Source: a virus. From it: DNA of 44,073 nt. How positions within the stretch are numbered: the stretch's first letter is position 1; every line of letters starts with the position of its first letter. The translations under genes and the position numbers were made by a program. The stretch covers positions 1 to 44,073 of IMG/VR virus record IMGVR_UViG_3300028762_000023. One strand, written 5' to 3'. Below are positions 3,423 to 44,073 of the stretch, in pieces. Below the pieces are notes generated by a model, which searched no databases, was not told the DNA's origin, and saw only the letters and a program-made list of their open reading frames with translations.

Positions 3423-5354
3423 ATGCGCGTGCCACACGTAACCACTATTGACTTTGAAACTCAATCCATTGAGGGTCGTCCGAACTACCCGCCGAAGCCG
3501 GTCGGAGTAGCGATCAAGCCGTGGCGCAAGAAGGGCAGGTATTTCGCATGGGGGCACCCGACGGGCAATAACTGCACGAAGGCCGAAGCTGTCGCAGCGC
3601 TCAAGGCGGTCTGGGGCAAGGGGCCGGTCCTGTTCTTCAACGGCAAGTTCGATGTCGACGTAGCCGAGACGCACCTTGGGATGCCCCGGCTTACCGACAC
3701 CGACATTCACGACGCCATGTTCATAATGTTCTTGCGCGACCCCCATGCGCGCGAGTTGGGCCTCAAGCCGCTGGCCGAGCGCTTTCTGAATACGCCGCCC
3801 GATGAGCAGGATGAGCTCAAGGCGTGGATCATGTCCCACAAGAAAGACCTGGAGGCCAAGTACGGAGTTTTCAAGCCTTCCGAGTGGGGCGCTATGATCA
3901 GCAAAGCGCCGGGCGCGCTTGTGGGCAAGTATGCCGTCGGCGACGTTGACCGCACCGAGGCGTTGTTCATTGATAGCTGGGATTGGGTTATCAACGAGCA
4001 TGAGATGCTTGAGGCTTACGAGCGCGAGCAGAAGGTCATGCCCATATTCTTGGATAACGAGCGCGTCGGCATACGCATTGACGTAGAGCGGCTGCGCAAA
4101 GACATCGAGTCCTACTCGGCCATGCTGGAAGCTGTAGACGCGTGGCTGCGCAAGCGTCTGAAGTCGGCATCCATGTCTCTTGACAATGACGGTCAAGTGC
4201 TGGAGGCGCTGCTGCGCGCTGGCGTGGTGCGCGAGAACCAGCTTGCGCTGACCAAGACGGGCCGGTTCAGCATTAGCAAGGCCAGCCTCACGCCGGATAT
4301 GTATGCGGACCCCAAGGTGGCCTCGGCGTTCGGGTACCGCAACCGGCTGACCACCTGCCTCAAAATGTTCATGCTGCCTTGGCTGATACAGGCGGAGGCG
4401 CGGGGCGACGGGCATATCTCAACAAACTGGAATCAGGTGCGGGGCGAAAAGGGCGGCACGCGCACCGGGCGCCCATCAACAACCAATCCTAACTTTCTGA
4501 ACATCAGCAAGACATGGGATAACAACGACGATGGCTACAAGCATCCGTCGCATCTTGAAGTTGATGCGCTGCCGCTTGTGCGGCGCTACCTGCTGCCTGA
4601 TGTGGACGCCGCGTGGCTGCACCGAGACTATAATGGTCAAGAGTTGCGGTTGCTTGCCCACTTTGAGGACGGTCCTCTTATGCAGGCGTATCGCGAAAAT
4701 CCATGGATGGATGTCCACCAGCACGTAGCCGACCTTATCGAGACCAAGACCGGCAAGATGTTTGCGCGCAAGCAAGTCAAAATCGCAAACTTCCGGATCA
4801 TCTACGGAGGCGGCGCACCGGCCACGGCAAGCGGGATAGGTTGTTCTATCGAAGAGGCTAAGAGCCTGCTGGCAGCGCACGGGGCGGCGCTCCCATCCGT
4901 CAACGGGCGCGGCGGGCTGTCGGAGCGTATCAAGAAGATTGCCAAGGACGGTGGCGCGATCTATACGTGGGGCAACCGCGCCTACTACGTTGAGCCGCCA
5001 AGCTTCAGCAAGAAGTATAATCGGCACATGACGTATGAGTACAAGATGCTCAACTACGAGTGCCAAGGCAGCGCGGCCGATGTGACCAAGCAAGCCATGA
5101 TCAACTATAACGAACACCCTAAGCGGCGTGGTCGCTTTCTCGTGCAGGTGTATGACGAGATGAACTCCTCATCACCTTCGGCCAAAGCGGCAAAGGCGCG
5201 GCGCGACGCAGCTATCGCAGAGATGCAGGTGCTTCGTGACAGCATGGAGGCAGTCAGCAAAGCCCTTGACGTGCCCATGCTCAGCGAGGGCAAGTGGGGC
5301 CTGACATGGGCTGACCAGGAAAAGTTCACAGAGGTAGCAAGCGAATATGCGTAA
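3423..5354 (+). CDS. Family A (Pol I-type) DNA polymerase with 3'-5' exonuclease
   Basis: 643 residues, of the exonuclease-plus-polymerase type without a 5' nuclease. Proofreading motifs: Exo I IDFETQ (D10, E12), Exo II NGKFD around D77, Exo III YAVGD (Y170, D174). Polymerase motif A is RDYNGQELRLLAHF with catalytic D402; motif B is RKQVKIANFRIIYGG (R449, K453, Y461); motif C is QVYDEM with D578 and E579. The usual His of motif C (HDE) is Tyr577 here, which is uncommon. The start is ATG 3423 after AGGAG. It is the main replicative polymerase and works with the primase-helicase, ligase and SNF2-type helicase encoded nearby. The next gene overlaps by 8 bp. Confidence 0.95.
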   Translation: MRVPHVTTIDFETQSIEGRPNYPPKPVGVAIKPWRKKGRYFAWGHPTGNNCTKAEAVAALKAVWGKGPVLFFNGKFDVDVAETHLGMPRLTDTDIHDAMFIMFLRDPHARELGLKPLAERFLNTPPDEQDELKAWIMSHKKDLEAKYGVFKPSEWGAMISKAPGALVGKYAVGDVDRTEALFIDSWDWVINEHEMLEAYEREQKVMPIFLDNERVGIRIDVERLRKDIESYSAMLEAVDAWLRKRLKSASMSLDNDGQVLEALLRAGVVRENQLALTKTGRFSISKASLTPDMYADPKVASAFGYRNRLTTCLKMFMLPWLIQAEARGDGHISTNWNQVRGEKGGTRTGRPSTTNPNFLNISKTWDNNDDGYKHPSHLEVDALPLVRRYLLPDVDAAWLHRDYNGQELRLLAHFEDGPLMQAYRENPWMDVHQHVADLIETKTGKMFARKQVKIANFRIIYGGGAPATASGIGCSIEEAKSLLAAHGAALPSVNGRGGLSERIKKIAKDGGAIYTWGNRAYYVEPPSFSKKYNRHMTYEYKMLNYECQGSAADVTKQAMINYNEHPKRRGRFLVQVYDEMNSSSPSAKAAKARRDAAIAEMQVLRDSMEAVSKALDVPMLSEGKWGLTWADQEKFTEVASEYA

Positions 5355-7910: not shown

Positions 7911-9306
7911 GTATCAGAAGAAGGCTATCAAGTTCCTGCTGGAGCATGGGGCCGCTGCGCTCTTGCTGGACCCCGGCATGGGCAAGACGGCTATCACGCT
8001 CAAAGCCATTGCATCGCTGGTGAAGGCCGGAGTATCCAAGCGCACGCTGGTCATCGCCCCGCTGCGCGTGTGCCAGCTTGTCTGGCCGTCTGAGCCATCG
8101 GAGTGGGATGACCTTGCGCACCTGCGCATCGGCGTGCTGCACGGGTCCCACAAGCAAGACGTTCTGGACAACCGCGATAACTACGATATTCTGGTTATCA
8201 ACCCAGAAGGGCTGGAGTGGCTGATATGCGGCAAGGGCGCCAGCGTAGATATGAAGCGGTGGAAGTCTTTCGGCTTCGACACTCTAGTTATCGATGAGCT
8301 CACCAAGTTCAAATCAACCAAGGGCCTGCGCTTCAAACTGCTCAAGAAAGTGCTGGGGACGTTCAGCCGTCGATGGGGACTGACCGGCACGCCCGCCCCC
8401 AACGGCCTCATGGATCTGTTCGGTCAGATGTATGTGCTCGACATGGGGAACGCTCTGGGCCAGTATATCACGCACTACCGCATGAAATACTTTCTGCCTG
8501 TGGATCCTCAGGGATGGAAGTGGGTACTGCGCACCGGGGCGGACAAAGAGATCTACGCCAAGCTGCGGCCTCTGGCTCTGCGCGCCAGCGCCGAGGACCA
8601 CCTTGAACTGCCGGAGATCATACCGCTCAAGGTCATGGTGGATATGCCGCCGCGTGCGCGCAAGATGTATGAGCAGGTTGAGGATGATCTGCTGGCCAAG
8701 ATTGACGAGGACGTCATCAGCGCGGCCAATGCCGCCGCCGCCAGCACCAAGTGTCGACAGATCGCAAATGGGGCCGTCTATATCGACGATGACCTTGCGG
8801 CCAAGGTGGCGGGCAAAAACCGCGAGGCGCTTGTGGTTCACGACGCCAAGATCGAGGCGCTCAAGGAACTAGTTGAAGACTTGCAAGGTGAGCCGCTTCT
8901 GGTAGCCTACGAGTTCAACCACGATCTGGAGCGGCTGCGCCAAGCCTTCCCCGGCGTGCCCTACATCGGTTCCGGCGTAAACGAGAAGCAAGCCAAGAAG
9001 ATCGAGTCGGACTGGAACCTCGGGCTTCTCCCGCTTCTGTTCGGCCACCCGGCCAGCATGGGCCACGGCCTCAACTTTCAGAAGAGCAACGCTCAGCATG
9101 TCGCGTGGTTCGGCATGTTCTGGGACTTGGAACTGTATGAGCAGTTTATCAAGCGCGTGCGCCGTCAAGGAAACAAGGCGCTGCGCGTCTTCGTGCATCA
9201 CTTTATGGCTCGCGATACCATAGACGAGACCATCTACCACGTCCAGCGCGCCAAGGCCAAGACGCAGAACGCGCTGCTAGAGGCGCTCAAGGCGCGGAGG
9301 CGCTAA
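7837..9306 (+). CDS. SNF2-family DEAD/DEAH-like helicase
   Basis: 489 residues. Walker A is DPGMGKTA (residues 45-52), motif II VIDELTKFK, motif III GLTGTPAPNG, and the second RecA domain carries GHGLNFQ and the arginine motif IKRVRRQG. These are the SF2/SNF2 translocase motifs, without a fused nuclease. It probably remodels or translocates on double-stranded DNA during replication or recombination, perhaps with the VRR-NUC protein. ATG 7837 has AAGGA about 10 bases upstream but gives a non-conserved 17-residue leader; GTG 7888 would start just before the first conserved block (HRYQKKAIKFL). The stop overlaps the next ATG by one base. Confidence 0.92.
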   Translation: MSPGLITKKPPSKPLKRVFSASAHRYQKKAIKFLLEHGAAALLLDPGMGKTAITLKAIASLVKAGVSKRTLVIAPLRVCQLVWPSEPSEWDDLAHLRIGVLHGSHKQDVLDNRDNYDILVINPEGLEWLICGKGASVDMKRWKSFGFDTLVIDELTKFKSTKGLRFKLLKKVLGTFSRRWGLTGTPAPNGLMDLFGQMYVLDMGNALGQYITHYRMKYFLPVDPQGWKWVLRTGADKEIYAKLRPLALRASAEDHLELPEIIPLKVMVDMPPRARKMYEQVEDDLLAKIDEDVISAANAAAASTKCRQIANGAVYIDDDLAAKVAGKNREALVVHDAKIEALKELVEDLQGEPLLVAYEFNHDLERLRQAFPGVPYIGSGVNEKQAKKIESDWNLGLLPLLFGHPASMGHGLNFQKSNAQHVAWFGMFWDLELYEQFIKRVRRQGNKALRVFVHHFMARDTIDETIYHVQRAKAKTQNALLEALKARRR

Positions 9307-9959
9307 TGGCCCGCAAGGCAACCGCCCCGGCACCCGCGCCTTCCGCCTTTGAGCCCTACAGGCTCCGCGATCCGTATAGCCTAATGGGCAGGCGCATTCT
9401 TGTGCTGGGCCGGACCTTCCAAGGCGTGTTCGGCGTGGCGCTCAATCCGGCCTACGTGCCCGGCGTGCAAGTGGGAGTAACAGATTGTGTGGTGCTGGAT
9501 TGGCACTTGAGGAATTACCCGCGTATAGAGGAAGAAACCTCTTTACATTCTCTAATCTCGGGTATAAAAGAATCCATGTTGGCACACGGAGCCACGTCGC
9601 TTGCGGTCCAATGGATTGGGGAATGGTCCCCGTTTACTGAAGAGGAGCTGAGTATCATGGCCACCAAGCTGAAGACCAAGGGCGCGGAAGCCGCACCCGC
9701 CAAGACCCCTGCCAAGGGCAAGGGCAACCCCGAGGCGCTCGCCAAGGCGCGCGAAGCCCGCTCCGCCGACAGCGCGGAAAGCGACAAGCGCAAGATCAAG
9801 ATCGTCAACAAGGAGAACCCCTTCCGGGAGGGCTCCAACCGCGCTGCTTCGTTCGACGCGCTCAAGGGCGCCAAGACCGTCGGCGACTACAAGGAAGCGG
9901 GCGGTAAGACCAAGTATCTTTCGAAGCTGGTCGAGTCGGGTCACATCGAACTGACCTAA
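9306..9959 (+). CDS. Lys/Ala-rich protein with C-terminal domain shared with the 36879 protein
   Basis: 217 residues. Residues 1-117 form a globular unknown region, part of it of visibly lower GC (about 9475-9600). Residues 118-160 are Lys/Ala/Pro-rich and histone H1-like. Residues 162-217 form a compact module (KIKIVNKENPF ... GGKTKYLSKLVESGHIELT) that aligns with the C-terminus of the product of 36879-37424. An internal ATG at 9657, preceded by AGAGGAG about 9 bases upstream, would yield just the 100-residue basic part, so two products are possible. Possible roles are nucleoid-like DNA binding or transcription modulation; unproven. A strong terminator follows. Confidence 0.75.
   Translation: MARKATAPAPAPSAFEPYRLRDPYSLMGRRILVLGRTFQGVFGVALNPAYVPGVQVGVTDCVVLDWHLRNYPRIEEETSLHSLISGIKESMLAHGATSLAVQWIGEWSPFTEEELSIMATKLKTKGAEAAPAKTPAKGKGNPEALAKAREARSADSAESDKRKIKIVNKENPFREGSNRAASFDALKGAKTVGDYKEAGGKTKYLSKLVESGHIELT
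9641..9659 (+). promoter_or_regulatory. Internal ribosome-binding site and alternative start
   Basis: AGAGGAG (9641-9647) precedes an in-frame ATG at 9657 inside the gene 9306-9959. It could direct translation of a separate 100-residue Lys/Ala-rich protein of nearly the same architecture as the 36879 product. Confidence 0.45.
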
Positions 9960-10030: not shown

Positions 10031-10663
10031 ATGTTCAGCGTAATCAAACTTGGGGGCTGCAATGGCTCCGGCAAGACCACGGTGGCCCGCGCGCTGCTCG
10101 CGGAGATCAATGGCGTACCTCGCTGCAGTCGTAAGACCAAAAAGAACCCCGACTACTATATCGGCCGGTGGGGCTTGACGGAGGTTCTGGTGCTTGGCCC
10201 CTACGTGACCACCTGCGGCGGCATGGACAGCATCAGCGACAAGCTTCAGCGCATGGCTCTGATCCAGTGGGCCTGCAAGGGCGACCGCATTGTATTCTTC
10301 GAGGGGCTGATTACCGGCAAGACGTACGGAGCCATCGGAGCCATCAGCGAACTTCATCTAAGCGCCAAGAGAGGCAAGTGGATTTATGCTTTCATGGATA
10401 CGCCGTTTGAGACTTGCGTTGAGCGTGTCGGCCTTCGTCGCGCGGCGGCTGGCAAAGGCATGGAGGACTTCGACCCCGAGCGCACCATGCGGCCGACCTT
10501 CGATAGTTGCACGTCGCTCCTCAGGAAAATACAGGGTGTCCAGAAAGCCAAGATCGGCGAGCAGCCGTTTCCGCACCCCACCCATCTTGTGAAGCACGAC
10601 AAGAGCCCCAAGGCTGAGGCCATTCGGCTTCTCAAGGCAGCGGAGAAGCTTCGCAATGCGTAG
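10031..10663 (+). CDS. P-loop kinase, candidate 5-hydroxymethyluracil DNA kinase
   Basis: 210 residues, ATG 10031 with a strong AAGGAGGT about 6 bases upstream. Walker A is GGCNGSGKT (residues 8-16). A conserved-looking block follows (VLGPYVTTCGGMDSI), then VFFEGLITG and a DTPFETCVERV segment like the LID region of nucleotide kinases. The CGG-x-D block and the adjacency to the HMUDK-helical-type protein, with which it overlaps by 8 bp, suggest the kinase step of thymine hypermodification (phosphorylating 5-hmU in DNA). A plain deoxynucleotide kinase is the main alternative. First gene of the five-gene cassette. Kinase fold confident; substrate inferred. Confidence 0.8.
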   Translation: MFSVIKLGGCNGSGKTTVARALLAEINGVPRCSRKTKKNPDYYIGRWGLTEVLVLGPYVTTCGGMDSISDKLQRMALIQWACKGDRIVFFEGLITGKTYGAIGAISELHLSAKRGKWIYAFMDTPFETCVERVGLRRAAAGKGMEDFDPERTMRPTFDSCTSLLRKIQGVQKAKIGEQPFPHPTHLVKHDKSPKAEAIRLLKAAEKLRNA

Positions 10664-11507
10664 CGAAGATCTTGTGCGGTTTATCCGCGCTCGCGAGGCT
10701 CACCGCCTAGCCAAAGAGGCCGGGCGCTGGGTCAGCCGATCCAAGCCGGATCCGATCATCGAGCAGTTCCGCTTCTGTAACGTGCGGCGCAACGATGACC
10801 GCGTAACGAAGTGGATTCACACTCACTTCTTCAAAGAATGGGGCTACGACTTCCAGCTTTGGTTCCCACTCGTAGTGGCGCGCCTCTTTAACAACGAGGA
10901 AACTCTTCAGGCGCTGCTTGATGCGAAGTGCATTCTGCCATTCAAGCCCAACAAGATGAAGAAGGTACTGCACGAGCGCGCATGGGCAGGCAGCAAGAAC
11001 TTCAACGCAGCCTACATCGTGTCGACCAATGGCCGCGCCATGGACAAGGTCGATTATGTCGTTGATGTGGTACTCCAGCCCGCGTGGGACAAGCGCAAAG
11101 AAATGCACCGCCTGATATGGGTTGGGCAGCTTGCCAACGCCCACATAGCCCTGAGCAGCCTTCAAGGTCTTGGCAGCTTCATGGCCGGGCAGGTATTGGC
11201 TGACCTGAAGTACGCGCCCATGCCGTGGACGTGGGAGGACTTCAGCACCTTCGCTTGCTCAGGGCCGGGCAGTCGGCGCGGCCTCAACCGCATTATGGCT
11301 CAAAATGTCAACGCACCTTGGAAAGAACTTGTCTTCCGGCAAACTCTGAGTAAGCTAAGGGATGCGGTTAACCTGCGCCTAAAGTGGGAAGAGCCGTTGA
11401 CAGCGCACGATATCCAGAACTGCCTTTGCGAGTTTGACAAGCATGAGCGGGCACGGCTGGATCAGGGCAGGCCGAAGCAGATGTATAAACCACAGGAGAA
11501 GAAGTGA
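10656..11507 (+). CDS. Putative DNA base hypermodification protein (5-hmdU kinase helical / aGPT-PPlase-like)
   Basis: 283 residues, all helical, with no P-loop. The segment DPIIEQFRFCNVRRNDDRV followed by TKWIHTHF (about residues 30-60) and the later LFNNEETLQALL are the hallmarks I recall of the 5-hmdU-DNA-kinase helical domain and the related alpha-glutamyl/putrescinyl thymine pyrophosphorylase families, DNA-glycosylase-like proteins that act on phosphorylated 5-hydroxymethyluracil in phage DNA. A further conserved-looking block is LQGLGSFMAGQVLADLKY, in a helix-hairpin-helix-like position. It starts at ATG 10656 inside the kinase gene, and the next start overlaps its stop. Whether it is a DNA-binding subunit of the kinase or an amino-acid:DNA transferase is not decidable from sequence by eye. 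Confidence 0.8.
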   Translation: MRSEDLVRFIRAREAHRLAKEAGRWVSRSKPDPIIEQFRFCNVRRNDDRVTKWIHTHFFKEWGYDFQLWFPLVVARLFNNEETLQALLDAKCILPFKPNKMKKVLHERAWAGSKNFNAAYIVSTNGRAMDKVDYVVDVVLQPAWDKRKEMHRLIWVGQLANAHIALSSLQGLGSFMAGQVLADLKYAPMPWTWEDFSTFACSGPGSRRGLNRIMAQNVNAPWKELVFRQTLSKLRDAVNLRLKWEEPLTAHDIQNCLCEFDKHERARLDQGRPKQMYKPQEKK

Positions 11508-12526
11508 TGCACACAATTTCAGCGGGCAGCGTCGGAGAGGCGCTGGCCCTTGGGCTTGACATTTTGTCCAGCCCCATGTCAACCTCCAACGAGGCCAGCC
11601 GCAACGGCGGCGTCACGGTGCTTAACGGCCCCATGATCACAACATATCAGTCGCCGGTGCGCCGCGTGCTGTTCAGCCCCAAGCGGGACGCCAATCCTTT
11701 CTTTCATTACTTCGAGGCGCTCTGGATGCTGGGCGGGCGTAACGATCTGGAGTGGCTGGCGCAATTCAACAAGCAGATGCGGTCCTACAGCGATGACGGC
11801 GGGCGTACTCAGCCCGCCGCGTATGGCTTCCGGTGGCGCGACTACTTCGGCTACGACCAGATTGATGCGGTGGTCGAAGAACTACGCTTGCACCCGGAGA
11901 GCCGCCGTGCCGTGCTGGCCATGTGGGACGGCTTCAAAGACATGGGGCGCGTGCGTCTTGGCAGCGCCGATGTTCCGTGCAATACTCAGTGCTTCTTCAC
12001 CATCCGTAACGGCCTGCTGAACATGGCGGTCACGTGCCGGAGCAACGATGCGCTCTGGGGCGCGCACGGCGCCAACGCAGTCCACTTCAGTATTCTGCAG
12101 GAATACATCGCGGCGCGGATCGGCGTACTCATGGGCACGCTTACTCAGTTCAGCTGGAACTACCATATCTACGATGGTATTCTCAAGCACTCGATGCGGG
12201 ACGTCATCATGGATCTTTTCGAGACCGATGCGTACGAGAGCGGCGTGGTCGCGCCCGTCTACCTGTTCAGCCCCGACGACATGGAGTTGTTTGACGAGGA
12301 ACTCCCGCACTGGCTCCAAGCGGCTGCGCCGGGCGGGCACCGCTACCGGCCGACGCACTTGGCGCTACATCTGGCGGATCGTATGTTGGCCGCGTGGCGT
12401 CACCACAAGCGCGGCGACTATATGTCGGCGCTGGCCAGCCTGGAGCCCATGCCGCACCTGTGCGACTGGCGGCTGGCCTGCCAGCAATGGCTGGAGCGGC
12501 GCCTTGCCAAGAAGGAGGCAGCATGA
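11507..12526 (+). CDS. Thymidylate synthase-family enzyme, candidate dUMP hydroxymethylase
   Basis: 339 residues from ATG 11507 (AGGAGAAG 7-8 bases upstream; GTG 11504 also possible). Recognisable thymidylate synthase features are EALWMLGGRND near residue 75, SRRAVLAMWD, the catalytic cysteine in DVPCNTQ (C158), the TCRSNDALWGAHGAN block with N190 in the place of the dUMP-reading Asn, and the FSWNYHIYD ending. The classical PCH is PCN here. N190 argues for dUMP rather than dCMP as substrate. In this operon the likely reaction is hydroxymethylation of dUMP to 5-hm-dUMP; ordinary dTMP synthesis cannot be excluded. ATGA overlap with the HD gene. Confidence 0.85.
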   Translation: MHTISAGSVGEALALGLDILSSPMSTSNEASRNGGVTVLNGPMITTYQSPVRRVLFSPKRDANPFFHYFEALWMLGGRNDLEWLAQFNKQMRSYSDDGGRTQPAAYGFRWRDYFGYDQIDAVVEELRLHPESRRAVLAMWDGFKDMGRVRLGSADVPCNTQCFFTIRNGLLNMAVTCRSNDALWGAHGANAVHFSILQEYIAARIGVLMGTLTQFSWNYHIYDGILKHSMRDVIMDLFETDAYESGVVAPVYLFSPDDMELFDEELPHWLQAAAPGGHRYRPTHLALHLADRMLAAWRHHKRGDYMSALASLEPMPHLCDWRLACQQWLERRLAKKEAA

Positions 12527-13056
12527 CTCAGCCAGCTTACACTTTCGCCATCAAGGGCGGTAACGTCAAGCGGTACCACACTATTCCGACCATCATGCCG
12601 GACACGGTGGCCCACCACAGCTTCAACGTGTGCATGATGATCATGGCGCTGGACCCGCTTGCCAGCGCCGCGCTATTGCGCGCCGGGCTTCAGCATGACA
12701 TTGCTGAACACAAGCTGGGAGACATGCCTGCTCCGGCCAAGCGGGCCATGCGGATACGCGAACTGTTCCAGGAGCATGAGGAGGCGCACATGAAAGACGC
12801 GGGCATCAGCCCGGAGATACTGACCAAGGCAGAAGAGTGGGTGCTGAAGGTATCGGACGCACTCGACGGAATGCGCTTCTGCGTGCAGGAGCGTGCCATG
12901 GGCAACCAGTTGATCTGGGAGCCGTACTTCAACTTTCAATCTTACGTTGAGCAATTGCTGGAAGGGATACCCGCTGATGGAAACCAAATCGCACGCAGAG
13001 CCCACAAGTTCTACGAATACTTCAAGGCCGACTGGCACGCCGTCGGGGGCCAATGA
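12523..13056 (+). CDS. HD-domain deoxynucleotide phosphohydrolase (YfbR/DatZ-like)
   Basis: 177 residues, ATG 12523 with GAAGGAGG just upstream, overlapping the previous stop. HD-superfamily metal ligands are visible: H31/H32 in TVAHHSFN, the HD pair at H58-D59 (GLQHDIAEHKLGD), and D112 in KVSDALDG. The KRYHTIPTI start and overall length resemble both bacterial 5'-deoxynucleotidase YfbR and the phage dATPase DatZ. In this cassette it may hydrolyse a canonical nucleotide (for example dTTP or dTMP) so the modified one is incorporated. No PurZ-like gene is present, which weakens a Z-genome role. Fold confident; substrate inferred. Confidence 0.85.
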   Translation: MTQPAYTFAIKGGNVKRYHTIPTIMPDTVAHHSFNVCMMIMALDPLASAALLRAGLQHDIAEHKLGDMPAPAKRAMRIRELFQEHEEAHMKDAGISPEILTKAEEWVLKVSDALDGMRFCVQERAMGNQLIWEPYFNFQSYVEQLLEGIPADGNQIARRAHKFYEYFKADWHAVGGQ

Positions 13057-13402
13057 TTTCCAGATCGGCGGCAAGCACTACAAGGAAGCGGAGTACCAGC
13101 ACTGGGACTTCGTATGTGATGAGTATCTGCACTATCTGATTGGCAACGCCACGAAATATGTCAGCCGGTGGCGCAGCAAGAATGGCGTGCAGGATTTGCA
13201 GAAGGCTCTGCACTACATTCGCAAAGCTGATGAGCGCAACGTGCGCCCCGATCCTAAGCAGCATCGAGGGCACGAAAACATTCATAACTTCATCAAGCAG
13301 TTCGACCGACCTGACCGCGATGCCCTGCTGGCAATACTTGAGGGCCGCTACGTGGTAGCGACCCTCATCATTCAGACTTTGATTGCCGATACTACTTCTT
13401 GA
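12977..13402 (+). CDS. DUF3310 protein, T7 gp1.7-like nucleotide kinase
   Basis: About 141 residues from ATG 12977, overlapping the HD gene by 80 bp. The conserved DUF3310 core starts at FQIGGKHYKEAEYQHWDFV, continues LIGNATKYVSRW and ends KALHYIRK. T7 gp1.7 has this fold and phosphorylates dTMP and dGMP, so here it could convert 5-hm-dUMP toward the triphosphate. The first roughly 25 residues are low-complexity Ser/Thr-rich and probably disordered. Last gene of the rightward block; its 3' end overlaps the convergent gene 13392-13763 by 11 bp with no obvious terminator. Confidence 0.82.
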   Translation: METKSHAEPTSSTNTSRPTGTPSGANDFQIGGKHYKEAEYQHWDFVCDEYLHYLIGNATKYVSRWRSKNGVQDLQKALHYIRKADERNVRPDPKQHRGHENIHNFIKQFDRPDRDALLAILEGRYVVATLIIQTLIADTTS

Positions 13403-36878: not shown

Positions 36879-37424
36879 ATGGCAAAGTCAAACGCAAACA
36901 CTGCAGTCGCCGCTACCGAAGCGAAGTCCACGTACCTGGAAACGCCGAAGGCGCAGCGCATGGCCAAGATCAAGCGCGAACTGGCCGACATCGGCAAGGA
37001 AACTGGCGCCAAGTCGGTTGCTGAACTGGAAGCCGCGAAGGCCAAGAAGCATCCGACGCAGGCGGCGACGCCTGGACTGGCGCGCGGCCTGAAGTCCACC
37101 GACGCCCCGCATTCGCAGAAGGCTGTCAAGGACGCCAAGTCGGCCGCTTCGCCTGCCAAGGCGACCACGAAGACCGACAAGGCGCAAGCGACCAAGGCGG
37201 CGAAAGTCACCGCCCGCGCCGAGCGCGCTGCACCGAAGGCCGGAGACACCCGGAAGATCACCATCGTGGACAAGAAGTTCACGTTCGGCCGGGAAGGTTC
37301 GGCGCGCCACGATAGCTGGACCGCCTGCACGACCAGCAAGACGGTCACCGAGTACCTCGCCAAGGGCGGCAAGGCAAAGTATCTGCCGCGCTGGGTCGCC
37401 GCCAAGGTGATCACGCTGGCCTAA
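36879..37424 (+). CDS. Histone H1-like Lys/Ala-rich protein with shared C-terminal module
   Basis: 181 residues, ATG 36879 with GGAG about 9 bases upstream. Residues 1-125 are dominated by Ala, Lys, Thr and Glu, like phage or bacterial H1-type nucleoid proteins. Residues 126-181 (RKITIVDKKFTFGREGSA, then TVTEYLAKGGKAKYLPRWVA) align with the C-terminus of the 9306-9959 product: K-I-x-I-V-x-K, then T-V-x-x-Y, then GGK-x-KYL. The shared module is probably a small DNA- or protein-binding domain. It may compact or coat phage or host DNA; that is inference from composition. A hairpin follows the stop. Confidence 0.78.
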   Translation: MAKSNANTAVAATEAKSTYLETPKAQRMAKIKRELADIGKETGAKSVAELEAAKAKKHPTQAATPGLARGLKSTDAPHSQKAVKDAKSAASPAKATTKTDKAQATKAAKVTARAERAAPKAGDTRKITIVDKKFTFGREGSARHDSWTACTTSKTVTEYLAKGGKAKYLPRWVAAKVITLA

Positions 37425-40240: not shown

Positions 40241-40409
40241 GCCGCACAAGGCGCGGCGCGTGACTTATAGAGTCAGGCGCTGCGCCGAAGGCTGGCTCCC
40301 CGTCGTGCTGATTGGGGAGGAGCCTTGGGTTATGTCTGCGCTTCCCAGCAAGCGCGAAGCAAGCGACCGCGCCAAGCGCGAGGCCGCAAGGATAAAGGGA
40401 CCAGCATGA
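40233..40409 (+). CDS. Small basic protein, 58 aa
   Basis: ATG 40233 inside the end of the VWA-like gene, with GAGGAGGAG directly upstream. It begins MSKPHKARRVTYRVRRCAEG, is very basic, and overlaps the next gene as ATGA. Coupling on both sides supports translation. Possibly nucleic-acid binding; unknown. Confidence 0.6.
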   Translation: MSKPHKARRVTYRVRRCAEGWLPVVLIGEEPWVMSALPSKREASDRAKREAARIKGPA

Positions 40410-40879
40410 ACTTGTTCGTAACTCACACAGATCCGCTGATTGCGGCACGTGATCTTGACGATAAGCGTGTCATCAAGATTGCGCTGGAGGCCACGCAGAT
40501 TCTGTCCGCCGTGCTTGACGAGCGCGGTGTGACGGGGTTTTACCGCGTCACGCATAGGCGACACCCGGTTACTCTGTGGGCCGGACGCCGTGCCAGCCAT
40601 GCCCGGTGGACCTTGCGCTATGGGCTGGCGCTGTGCGACGTCTACACGTCCTGGACTGGCCGAACCCACGCGTGCCAGCCGGTGCTGCGCGCCATGCGCC
40701 GCCACTTCCGCTCACCGCTGGAGCCGCTGGAGTTCCAGAACAGCGCGCGCGGCCATGGGTTTGACTTCAGCCACCTGCCGATCACCAACGCCTATCGCGC
40801 GTATCTGCTGGCACGCTGGCCCACCGACAAGCGAGAGCCGATCTGGACTGGTCGGCCAGTTCCGGGATGGGCGCTGTGA
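40406..40879 (+). CDS. Conserved phage protein (LDDKRV family), function uncertain
   Basis: 157 residues from ATG 40406 with AAAGGGA upstream; a longer frame from 40325 overlaps two genes. The N-terminus (MNLFVTHTDPLIAARDLDD, then KRVIKIALEATQILSAVL) and the later HPVTLWAGRRASHARWTL and YTSWTGRTHACQPVL match a widespread phage family of the form NxFxxDxDPxxAAxxLxDKHVxKMxLExxQxL. Some members are annotated as T4 endonuclease V / pyrimidine-dimer glycosylase-related; I cannot confirm that activity. The usual His of DKHV is Arg here. Confidence 0.65.
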   Translation: MNLFVTHTDPLIAARDLDDKRVIKIALEATQILSAVLDERGVTGFYRVTHRRHPVTLWAGRRASHARWTLRYGLALCDVYTSWTGRTHACQPVLRAMRRHFRSPLEPLEFQNSARGHGFDFSHLPITNAYRAYLLARWPTDKREPIWTGRPVPGWAL

Positions 40880-42013: not shown

Positions 42014-44044
42014 ATGTCTAAGAAGGGCGAATGGAGCAAGCTGGGAAAAGACAAGCTGCTCTCAAGTGGTATCACAAGTTCAGACGGCACCGCGCTCGGT
42101 ATGTATGAAGTGGTCAGCGCGGCGCTCTTGCATAAATCCTTTGAGGCGCGGCCCGCGCTGGTCATACCGTACTTTGATGTTGACAAGAAGCCGCTGGAGA
42201 GCCGCCCCGGTTGGGGTCAGTTCTATCGCATAAGGTACCTAGACAAGCCCTTCGGCTTCAAGGAGGCCGCTGGCGAGAAAGGCCCCAAGTATAAGCAAGA
42301 GCCGAACACTCGCGCTTGCGCCTACTTCCCAAAGTCCATTGAATGGAAGAGCGTAGGCGCTGATACCGACCAGCCTATCATCATCACGGAAGGTGAGTTG
42401 AAAGCCGCCGCTGGTTGTCAGGCCGGGTGGCCGTGCGTCGGCCTCGGAGGCGTGTGGTCCTTCCGGTCAGCAAAAGACGATATGGTCATGCTGCCGGAGA
42501 TGCACAAAATCGTGTGGCCCAAGCGCATCGTCTATCTGTGCTTTGATAGTGACTTCGTAACCAACGCGAATGTCTGCCTTGCCATGTCGGCGCTGGGCGA
42601 GGCGATGCAGAACCTTGGCGCGCTGGTCAAGTTCATAACGCTGCCCGGCGCTAACGATGAGAAGGTAGGGCTGGACGACTTCCTGCTGGCCAACGGCGAG
42701 GAAGCCTTTGGCGACCTAGTCAAGCAAGCGCAGAACCTTGGCATGACCTCAGCCCTATGGCGCATCAACAAGGAGGTCGTCTACATCGACAACCCCGGCC
42801 TCGTGATAAGCGTAGACGACATGCAGAAGATAGCGGTCGGTGCCTTCAAGGAGCATAGCAAGTGGGCCACCGAGTCCACCTTTGAGGCCCGCCTGCGCCC
42901 CAACGGTACGACACAGAACATGGTCGTGCCAGCCGCGCCGGTTTGGATCAAGTGGCCATTTCGTAGAACGGCTCGTAAGCTGACCTACGCGCCGGGCGAA
43001 GAGCTCATGACGCCAGAGGGCGATTTGAATATGTGGCGGGGCTGGGGCGTCAAACCCAAGAAGGGCACCGTGGACCCCTGGATCAAACTCACGCGGTTCA
43101 TATTTAGCGAGTGGACGCAGGAGCAGCTTGACTACTTTTATGACTGGTGCGCGTACCCGATACAGAACCCCGGCGCGAAGCTGTTCGTGGGCGTCGTTAT
43201 TCACGGCGTAACGCAAGGGACCGGCAAGACGCTCATTGGCTATACGCTGGGCCGCATATACGGAGAGAACTTCAAGGAAATTACCGACGACGATCTGGAG
43301 GAAACCTTCTGGGCCGAAAACCGCCAGTTCGTACTCGGTGATGAAGTATCGGGCAAAGACAACCGGCAATATATGAATACGCTGAAGCGGCTGATCACCA
43401 AGGACACCGTAACAGTCAACATCAAGTTCGTGCCGCAGTTTGAACTGCCCAACCGCATGAACTTTCTGTTCACGTCCCAGCACGGCGACAGCTTCTTTCT
43501 TGAAGATAAGGACCGCCGCTTTCTGGTGGCAGAAGTAGAGGGCGACCCCATGCCGGAGGCCTTCTACAAAGAGTACGACAAGTGGTACAAGGGTGACGGC
43601 GCTGGGCACTTGATGCAATGGCTGCTGGACCGCAAGATCAACAAAAACTTCAACCCCGCCGCTCCGGCGCCGCGCACCGCCGCCAAGGAGCGCATGATCT
43701 TGTCGACCAAGGGTGAACTCGGTAGCTGGATTGCCGAACTGGCGCAATACCCTGAGCAGGTGCTTCTCTTTGGCGATATGCGGCACACGCGGGACTTGTT
43801 TACGACTAGCGAACTTCTGGGTATGTTTATGAGCAGGCATCCTAACTCTACCAAGGTCACCGCGGTTGGGCTGGGGCGCCAGCTTACGGCGGCTGGGTTC
43901 TATCAGGTGTCTGGTGGCCAGCCGCTTAAGACACCCGAGGGTACGATGCAACGGTATTTCTGCGTCAGGAACCTGACGACGTGGAAGAAAGCCACGCGCA
44001 AGACCATGGAAGAGAACATCAAGAAACAGGCGGTGAAGAAGTGA
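42014..44044 (+). CDS. Primase-helicase (TOPRIM-like DUF3854 plus DUF5906-type SF3 helicase)
   Basis: 676 residues from ATG 42014 (GTGGGG six bases upstream; TTG 41990 would add eight residues). A TOPRIM-like N-terminal part has IITEGELKAAAG with E126 and LCFDSDF with D178 and D180, the acidic residues of DUF3854-type primases. The C-terminal superfamily 3-like helicase has Walker A GVTQGTGKT (K405) and Walker B FVLGDEVSG (D443, E444). It would prime and unwind for the family A polymerase. This copy is complete; positions 3-668 hold the same gene's 3' end from another strain variant. Confidence 0.88.
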   Translation: MSKKGEWSKLGKDKLLSSGITSSDGTALGMYEVVSAALLHKSFEARPALVIPYFDVDKKPLESRPGWGQFYRIRYLDKPFGFKEAAGEKGPKYKQEPNTRACAYFPKSIEWKSVGADTDQPIIITEGELKAAAGCQAGWPCVGLGGVWSFRSAKDDMVMLPEMHKIVWPKRIVYLCFDSDFVTNANVCLAMSALGEAMQNLGALVKFITLPGANDEKVGLDDFLLANGEEAFGDLVKQAQNLGMTSALWRINKEVVYIDNPGLVISVDDMQKIAVGAFKEHSKWATESTFEARLRPNGTTQNMVVPAAPVWIKWPFRRTARKLTYAPGEELMTPEGDLNMWRGWGVKPKKGTVDPWIKLTRFIFSEWTQEQLDYFYDWCAYPIQNPGAKLFVGVVIHGVTQGTGKTLIGYTLGRIYGENFKEITDDDLEETFWAENRQFVLGDEVSGKDNRQYMNTLKRLITKDTVTVNIKFVPQFELPNRMNFLFTSQHGDSFFLEDKDRRFLVAEVEGDPMPEAFYKEYDKWYKGDGAGHLMQWLLDRKINKNFNPAAPAPRTAAKERMILSTKGELGSWIAELAQYPEQVLLFGDMRHTRDLFTTSELLGMFMSRHPNSTKVTAVGLGRQLTAAGFYQVSGGQPLKTPEGTMQRYFCVRNLTTWKKATRKTMEENIKKQAVKK

Positions 44045-44073
44045 TTGTCAATACACGCACGGCTCAAGAAGCC
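43377..44073. repeat. Right copy of imperfect terminal repeat
   Basis: Matches 1-697 without gaps; exact over the first 127 bp (43377-43503), then about 94% overall. It contains the 3' end of the primase-helicase gene and the first 11 codons of the DnaJ-like gene. See the left copy for interpretation. Confidence 0.9.
44041..44073 (+). CDS. DnaJ-like protein, first 11 codons (cut by contig end)
   Basis: GTG 44041 overlaps the primase-helicase stop as GTGA and encodes VIVNTRTAQEA, identical in protein to the start at 665. It is the same gene as 665-1027 seen across the circular junction. Confidence 0.8.
   Translation, partial: MIVNTRTAQEA

Follow-up and report, generated by a model that had tools for sequence, protein, structure and literature searches.

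Candidate compact 5-hydroxymethyluracil DNA-modification cassette of a P22-like phage in which phosphorylation may be the last step

A 5-hydroxymethyl-deoxyuridine (5-hmdU) DNA kinase, an HMUDK_hel protein (hereafter HEL) and a thymidylate synthase (TS) homologue are encoded in this order in the phages M6, PaMx11, Pam3, RHph_I65, Sonora and MW2, in most of them followed by an HD nucleotidase and a DUF3310 protein, and all six carry the amino acid:DNA transferase ADDT and other tailoring genes upstream. In the kinase pathways studied, the base phosphate is a transient activated group (PMC6449724), as is also established knowledge. In vitro, a 5-hmdU DNA kinase alone phosphorylated approximately 20% of the 5-hmdU in SP8 DNA, and the kinase-treated DNA resisted many restriction enzymes, such as NcoI, NlaIII and PvuII, at sites that contain TG/TC (PMC7653180); a site preference of the kinase is likewise described in PMC6449724. 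Here we analysed the whole IMG/VR record IMGVR_UViG_3300028762_000023, a stretch of 44,073 bases with 59.7% GC (the window), in which five genes on the + strand (10031-13402) probably serve, as far as their sequences tell, to replace thymine with 5-hydroxymethyluracil (5-hmU) and to phosphorylate it afterwards. We regard the locus as a compact 5-hmU DNA-modification cassette of which phosphorylation would, on balance, be the last step.

Each of the five frames is open, and neighbouring frames overlap, the kinase and HEL genes by 8 nt, HEL and TS by 4 nt, TS and HD by 4 nt (ATGA) and HD and DUF3310 by 80 nt, and AGGAGG just 5' of the first ATG of the operon constitutes a good ribosome-binding site. 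The start of the HD gene was refined to 12523, where a Shine-Dalgarno-preceded ATG overlaps the TS stop, instead of a longer GTG version; for DUF3310 the ATG at 12977 is the most likely start. The Pfam matches of all five proteins exceeded the curated cut-offs, which confirmed the five overlapping plus-strand genes and the families named for them in a preliminary description of this DNA. The order kinase-HEL-TS-HD-DUF3310 was seen again in divergent contigs, and the arrangement is therefore not due to chance. The predicted cassette corresponds to the downstream half of the M6/PaMx11 cassette for thymidine hypermodification.

The first gene (10031..10663, +) occupies the tailoring slot described below and encodes a 210-aa protein that matches the 5-hmdU DNA kinase family HMUDK_HMUD1 (PF18748) at 6e-7 and 29.5 bits (cut-off 27). 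With profiles made from cultured-phage models, from which the window was excluded, the kinase was recovered at 7e-27 and HEL at 1e-52. Every position that is invariant among 39 kinases is retained, i.e. the P-loop GGCNGSGKT, G56, Y58, G64, D66, E91, G92 and R136. The nearest kinase, at 55% identity, is that of locus L021 (L numbers denote the loci compared), and identity to M6 gp54 amounts to 24-29% over the aligned part. Weak matches to thymidylate-kinase families were also obtained, and a PDB sequence search with the kinases of the window and of PaMx11 yielded no useful relative.

The third gene (11504..12526, +) encodes a predicted TS-family dUMP hydroxymethylase of 340 aa (Pfam TS, 2e-19) with 42.5% identity to the M6 TS over 99%. 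Its catalytic Cys159 and the dUMP-type, uracil-selecting Asn191 are invariant in the family. Since Asn191 stands where the CMP hydroxymethylase MilA has the Asp typical of dCMP/CMP hydroxymethylases, the enzyme is expected to make 5-hmdUMP and not 5-hmdCMP. The two last genes encode a YfbR-like HD 5'-deoxynucleotidase (12523..13056, +, 177 aa; Pfam 1e-9; PHROG 6047 and 7076), in which the HD motif residues could be read, and a DUF3310 protein (12977..13402, +, 141 aa; Pfam 5e-10) that matches the C-terminal domain of T7 gp1.7. The latter had been called a nucleotide kinase; T7 gp1.7, which carries DUF3310, is indeed annotated as such, but DUF3310 corresponds to the C-terminal ~60 of its 196 aa and the window protein consists of this part only, without the full-length gp1.7 architecture, so that the name has indirect support only. 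The family assignments support the set of precursor synthesis plus DNA kinase that had been proposed.

ADDT (PF18724, aGPT-PPlase2) was present in 8 of 8 kinase- and HEL-bearing phages of the M6/PaMx11 type that were checked, and also in ViI and W-14. The ADDT of PaMx11, gp46, is deposited as PDB 8z2m with the title 'Glycinyltransferase', and thus ADDT is a real, separate step that installs an amino acid. In the window genome, ADDT was found neither by Pfam nor by a broader 25-sequence profile at full sensitivity with E up to 10, and Pfam did not detect it in the near copy L007. No homologue of a glycosyltransferase (GT), pyridoxal-phosphate (PLP), radical-SAM, flavin adenine dinucleotide (FAD) or GNAT enzyme was found in the window either. 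The preliminary description was right that the PLP, radical-SAM and acetyltransferase genes of downstream tailoring are lacking, but the decisive gap is the missing ADDT.

To place the locus, 442 IMG/VR stretches with HEL relatives were considered and 80 loci kept; slot counts refer to the 69 loci, cultured and uncultured together, that are distinct at 95% identity. Kinase without ADDT occurred in 8/27 distinct kinase loci (the window, L021, L027, L037, L051, L058, L068 and L072), and searches of these eight whole contigs, some of them fragments, revealed no ADDT. ADDT never occurred without the kinase. The position 5' of HEL was held by the kinase in 27/69 loci and by a GT in 32/69, and never by both (Fisher 3e-11). 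In the lineage of the window the order PolA..VRR-SNF2-UP217-X-HEL-TS-HD-DUF3310 is fixed and only X varies: it is the kinase in the window, a TET-associated glycosyltransferase (TAGT, PF20691), sometimes together with a radical-SAM gene, in L015-L018, and a GT-B-like protein in L014, L025, L041 and others. The GT-B-like assignment is based on GT-1 family matches for L025, on a moderate profile match to L025 for the L014/L041 group, and on sequence reading alone for a further group (L032 and others).

On the HEL tree at least 14 changes between kinase and GT were counted, a parsimony minimum on one rapidly searched tree in which many forks have weak support; the starred branches alone required at least 3 changes for the kinase-only label. 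In the 99%-supported HEL clade with the window, two versions have the kinase, four a TAGT and one a GT-B, and compared with the GT-bearing sisters L014-L018 the window shows 70-74% identity in PolA, 65-70% in SNF2 and 57-64% in HEL. Because kinase and GT exclude each other in the same place, have been exchanged repeatedly and differ between close relatives, the tailoring enzyme is swapped around a constant core predicted to make 5-hmU. The 'minimal or new variant' suggested earlier is in line with these data, but it is not a one-off, given the seven other kinase-only loci, and its nearest relatives differ in the kinase slot.

Two GT versions carry a radical-SAM/SPASM gene between HEL and TS (L016 11062-12030, L017 10846-11829), and relatives of this gene are present at many TS loci (L098-L158), possibly representing an unstudied hmU-tailoring branch. 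The Microbacterium phages Guetzie and Zepp (L181, L182) combine HEL with a P-loop kinase (PF18751) or with two TAGT, neither having ADDT, and are candidates for slot exchange in cultured phages. Guetzie, with HEL and TS, was considered as a cultured kinase-only phage and not accepted, because its P-loop kinase, adjacent to HEL, is a PF18751 member with a weak match to the HMUDK profile; it is a lead.

The second gene of the operon (10656..11507, +) encodes a 283-aa protein of the HMUDK_hel or aGPT-PPlase1 type (PF18723; Pfam 2e-36, 126 bits, cut-off 25), with the match spanning model positions 6-277 of 281; this profile search, set beforehand as a refuting test, placed 10656-11507 inside HMUDK_hel. 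The AlphaFold model is all-helical and confident (pLDDT 93.8), with an ADDT-like fold that distantly resembles helix-hairpin-helix (HhH) DNA glycosylases. Structure matches in BFVD were proteins of W-14, phiRSL1 and SP10 and, more distantly, ADDT proteins (TMq about 0.45-0.6). Foldseek against the PDB gave weak DNA-glycosylase matches with E above 1, HhH glycosylases being the only plausible ones among the weak hits, and a PDB sequence search gave no useful relative. The profile comparison of HEL and ADDT was weak (hhalign probability 2.5%), the aligned region sharing GxG and LC-x-K. A polar set (R13, N42, R45, D48, R76, D183, G203-P-G, C258, E259 and K262) is invariant in 59 phage and 47 chromosomal proteins, and the 47 chromosomal homologues mostly have no TS and kinase nearby.

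HMUDK_hel is not found only together with the 5-hmdU DNA kinase, as 32/69 distinct loci have a GT and no kinase. Its presence in these loci and in chromosomes without kinase means that HEL is not a dedicated kinase domain, and that the Pfam name 'kinase helical domain' is too narrow. The earlier label 5-hmdU-kinase-helical therefore holds for the family, but not for a tie to the kinase, HEL being as frequent with GTs. Rather, HEL resembles an active or former enzyme whose target would be DNA that contains 5-hmU or is altered in another way, irrespective of the tailoring enzyme that comes next, and it may present or sense flipped-out 5-hmU. HEL as a proven kinase subunit was rejected: a 637-aa SP10 entry named '5-hmdU DNA kinase' suggests a possible fusion in that phage, but HEL without kinase is common.

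Among the chromosomal homologues, those of the haloarchaea Haloferax, Haloarchaeobius and Halomarina (L199, L202, L214, L229) share a conserved neighbourhood with SLATT-like DUF4231 and ThsB-type TIR genes, possibly a defence cassette using HEL. Solo HEL genes of Alphaproteobacteria (L203-L231) and Patescibacteria (L235-L247), mostly without TS, kinase or GT nearby, suggest a cellular role of the family. Several of the alphaproteobacterial ones adjoin cell-wall genes, by sequence reading a lytic transglycosylase, RlpA and a D-Ala-D-Ala carboxypeptidase; across the neighbours of the solo genes in both groups, no consistent functional clue emerged.

Gene identities, gene order, the lack of ADDT and the exchange in the slot are what the sequences show; what the enzymes do, how HEL takes part and which chemical product results, with what function, we infer as follows. 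The TS homologue would convert dUMP to 5-hmdUMP, while the HD nucleotidase would remove competing dTMP or other dNMPs, and the DUF3310 protein together with host kinases would help to raise hmdUMP to the triphosphate. PolA would then incorporate 5-hmdU, presumably as hmdUTP, so that thymidine is replaced in part or entirely. Once the DNA is made, the kinase would phosphorylate the 5-hydroxymethyl group at a subset of the 5-hmU sites, with some form of help from HEL and its glycosylase-like fold. Without ADDT, the phosphate (5-phosphomethyl-dU) would be the end product and would play the part that the sugar plays in the sister phages, protecting the DNA against restriction nucleases as a bulky or charged group. 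A final phosphate is the most likely outcome because the lack of ADDT leaves no known acceptor reaction and because the same slot holds a capping GT in the sisters. That the phage genome has 5-phosphomethyl-deoxyuridine as its final base, with phosphate and sugar as interchangeable 5-hmU caps and the catalytic-looking HEL common to both, is a tentative proposal to which we give somewhat less than an even chance. In a literature search of partial coverage, a base phosphate was nowhere reported as a natural end product.

Several points weigh against a terminal phosphate. It is not the end product in the kinase phages studied (M6, ViI and W-14), where it serves as an activated intermediate. The absence of ADDT rests on profiles, and these would miss a transferase that is very divergent, or not homologous at all, among the genes without assigned function. 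The kinase barely exceeds the Pfam cut-off and shares only 24-29% identity with M6 gp54. Closure of the genome is presumed as well, from a terminal repeat of 697 b (1-697 against 43377-44073) that is 93.8% and not 100% identical; since the ends match without gaps and 37/41 differing codons are synonymous, the record looks like one full circuit of a ~43.4-kb genome in which two strain variants were joined, not like an exact terminal repeat.

If HEL (aGPT-PPlase1) itself transferred an amino acid or amine in exchange for the phosphate, the product would be an amino-thymine despite the missing ADDT. This is what the older family name implies, and the ADDT-like fold (BFVD, TMq about 0.45-0.6), the GxG and LC-x-K aligned in the weak hhalign comparison (2.5%) and invariant polar residues typical of a catalytic site speak for it. 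We nevertheless consider it rather unlikely, since the 32 distinct HEL loci with GT and no kinase offer no phosphate to use, HEL occurs in chromosomes without TS or kinase, and in PaMx11, which carries HEL as well, the solved glycinyltransferase is a separate protein, the ADDT gp46. Alternatively, an unrecognised phage or host enzyme might act after the kinase and complete the modification, which would yield a hypermodified base that cannot be predicted from known families. Several window genes have no assigned function and hypermodification enzyme sets are very diverse; such an enzyme would, however, be needed in seven other kinase-only loci as well, which no common candidate adjoins, and UP217, the one additional neighbour that is conserved, has a low-complexity sequence with poor conservation and is also present in GT versions, so that we judge this explanation unlikely.

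The remaining alternatives concern the kinase and the state of the cassette. P-loop kinases of similar size include dNMP kinases, and together with the weak thymidylate-kinase family matches this would fit a kinase that acts on nucleotides (hmdUMP to hmdUDP) instead of DNA, leaving plain 5-hmdU in virion DNA. Its best family is nevertheless the 5-hmdU DNA kinase, upheld by leave-one-out, its slot alternates with DNA glycosyltransferases, pointing to tailoring at the DNA level, and a second pool gene is already there (DUF3310, T7 gp1.7-like); a nucleotide kinase is thus quite improbable. Least credible is that the locus is a decaying M6-type cassette about to be lost: ADDT and tailoring genes are lacking as expected of a remnant, but the five frames are open and overlapping, the motifs are conserved and the reduced form recurs in divergent phages.

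The other genes of the window place this phage, by its predicted proteins, with the P22-like (short-tailed) phages, because portal, P22-like major head protein, gp10-like head closure, terminase and endolysin are present; head, portal and terminase genes thereby bear out the P22-like podovirus proposed earlier. The closest coat proteins (~31% identity) are those of P26218 and other P22-coat phages, and most other scanned genes have ordinary phage functions. PolA, a family A DNA polymerase, lies in the same early region as the cassette (3423..5354, +). At 40325-40879 a distant match to Pyr_excise (pyrimidine dimer DNA glycosylase, 23.9 bits) was found in this phage with predicted altered pyrimidines. 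The conserved upstream neighbour UP217 (9306..9959, +) consists of a low-complexity linker and a small C-terminal module and is found with kinase and GT versions alike; as a hidden transferase it was rejected, being low-complexity, poorly conserved and common to GT versions. It is paralogous to 36879-37424, both having A/P/K-rich linkers and, behind them, C-terminal modules of ~60 aa that resemble each other (T-x-KI-x-I ... REG ... KTV) and to which no Pfam family could be assigned, and the module gene is conserved 5' of the tailoring slot across the lineage.

If the cassette stops at the phosphate, DNA bases would carry an extra negative charge that affects restriction, packaging and polymerases, and it would be the simplest such tailoring system, with one kinase and possibly one partner. 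The exchange of kinase and GT identifies the tailoring slot beside a fixed 5-hmU core as the unit of evolution, and '5-hmdU DNA kinase, helical domain' is a misleading Pfam name for a protein that is widespread and also occurs solo in bacteria and archaea. Compared with known systems, the Pseudomonas phage M6/YuA (5-NedU) has the same order of kinase gp54, HEL gp55, TS gp58, HD gp59, DUF3310 gp61 and PolA, but it is a siphovirus that adds ADDT gp51, a PLP enzyme, rSAM and Nmad5, and its proteins are 24-44% identical. Pseudomonas phage PaMx11 encodes kinase, HEL, TS, HD and DUF3310 as gp49-gp53 in the order of the window, and additionally ADDT gp46, an FAD enzyme/lyase and a GNAT acetyltransferase, all of which the window lacks. 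The Rhodoferax phage P26218 and ctfPj964 are P22-like podoviruses like the window, with PolA-VRR-SNF2 followed by kinase-TS-HD (and DUF3310 in P26218); they have ADDT and no HEL, the reverse of the window. The available text of PMC9599517 describes HTVC023P-type pelagiphages, likewise podoviruses, in which TS and aGPT-PPlase1 lie close to PolA and are taken to indicate hypermodification of thymidine; a GT and a nucleotidase are reported in some of them, and this text mentions no kinase. The uncultivated sisters L014-L018 of IMG/VR share the backbone of the window, and in them a TAGT (PF20691) or GT-B-like glycosyltransferase replaces the kinase.

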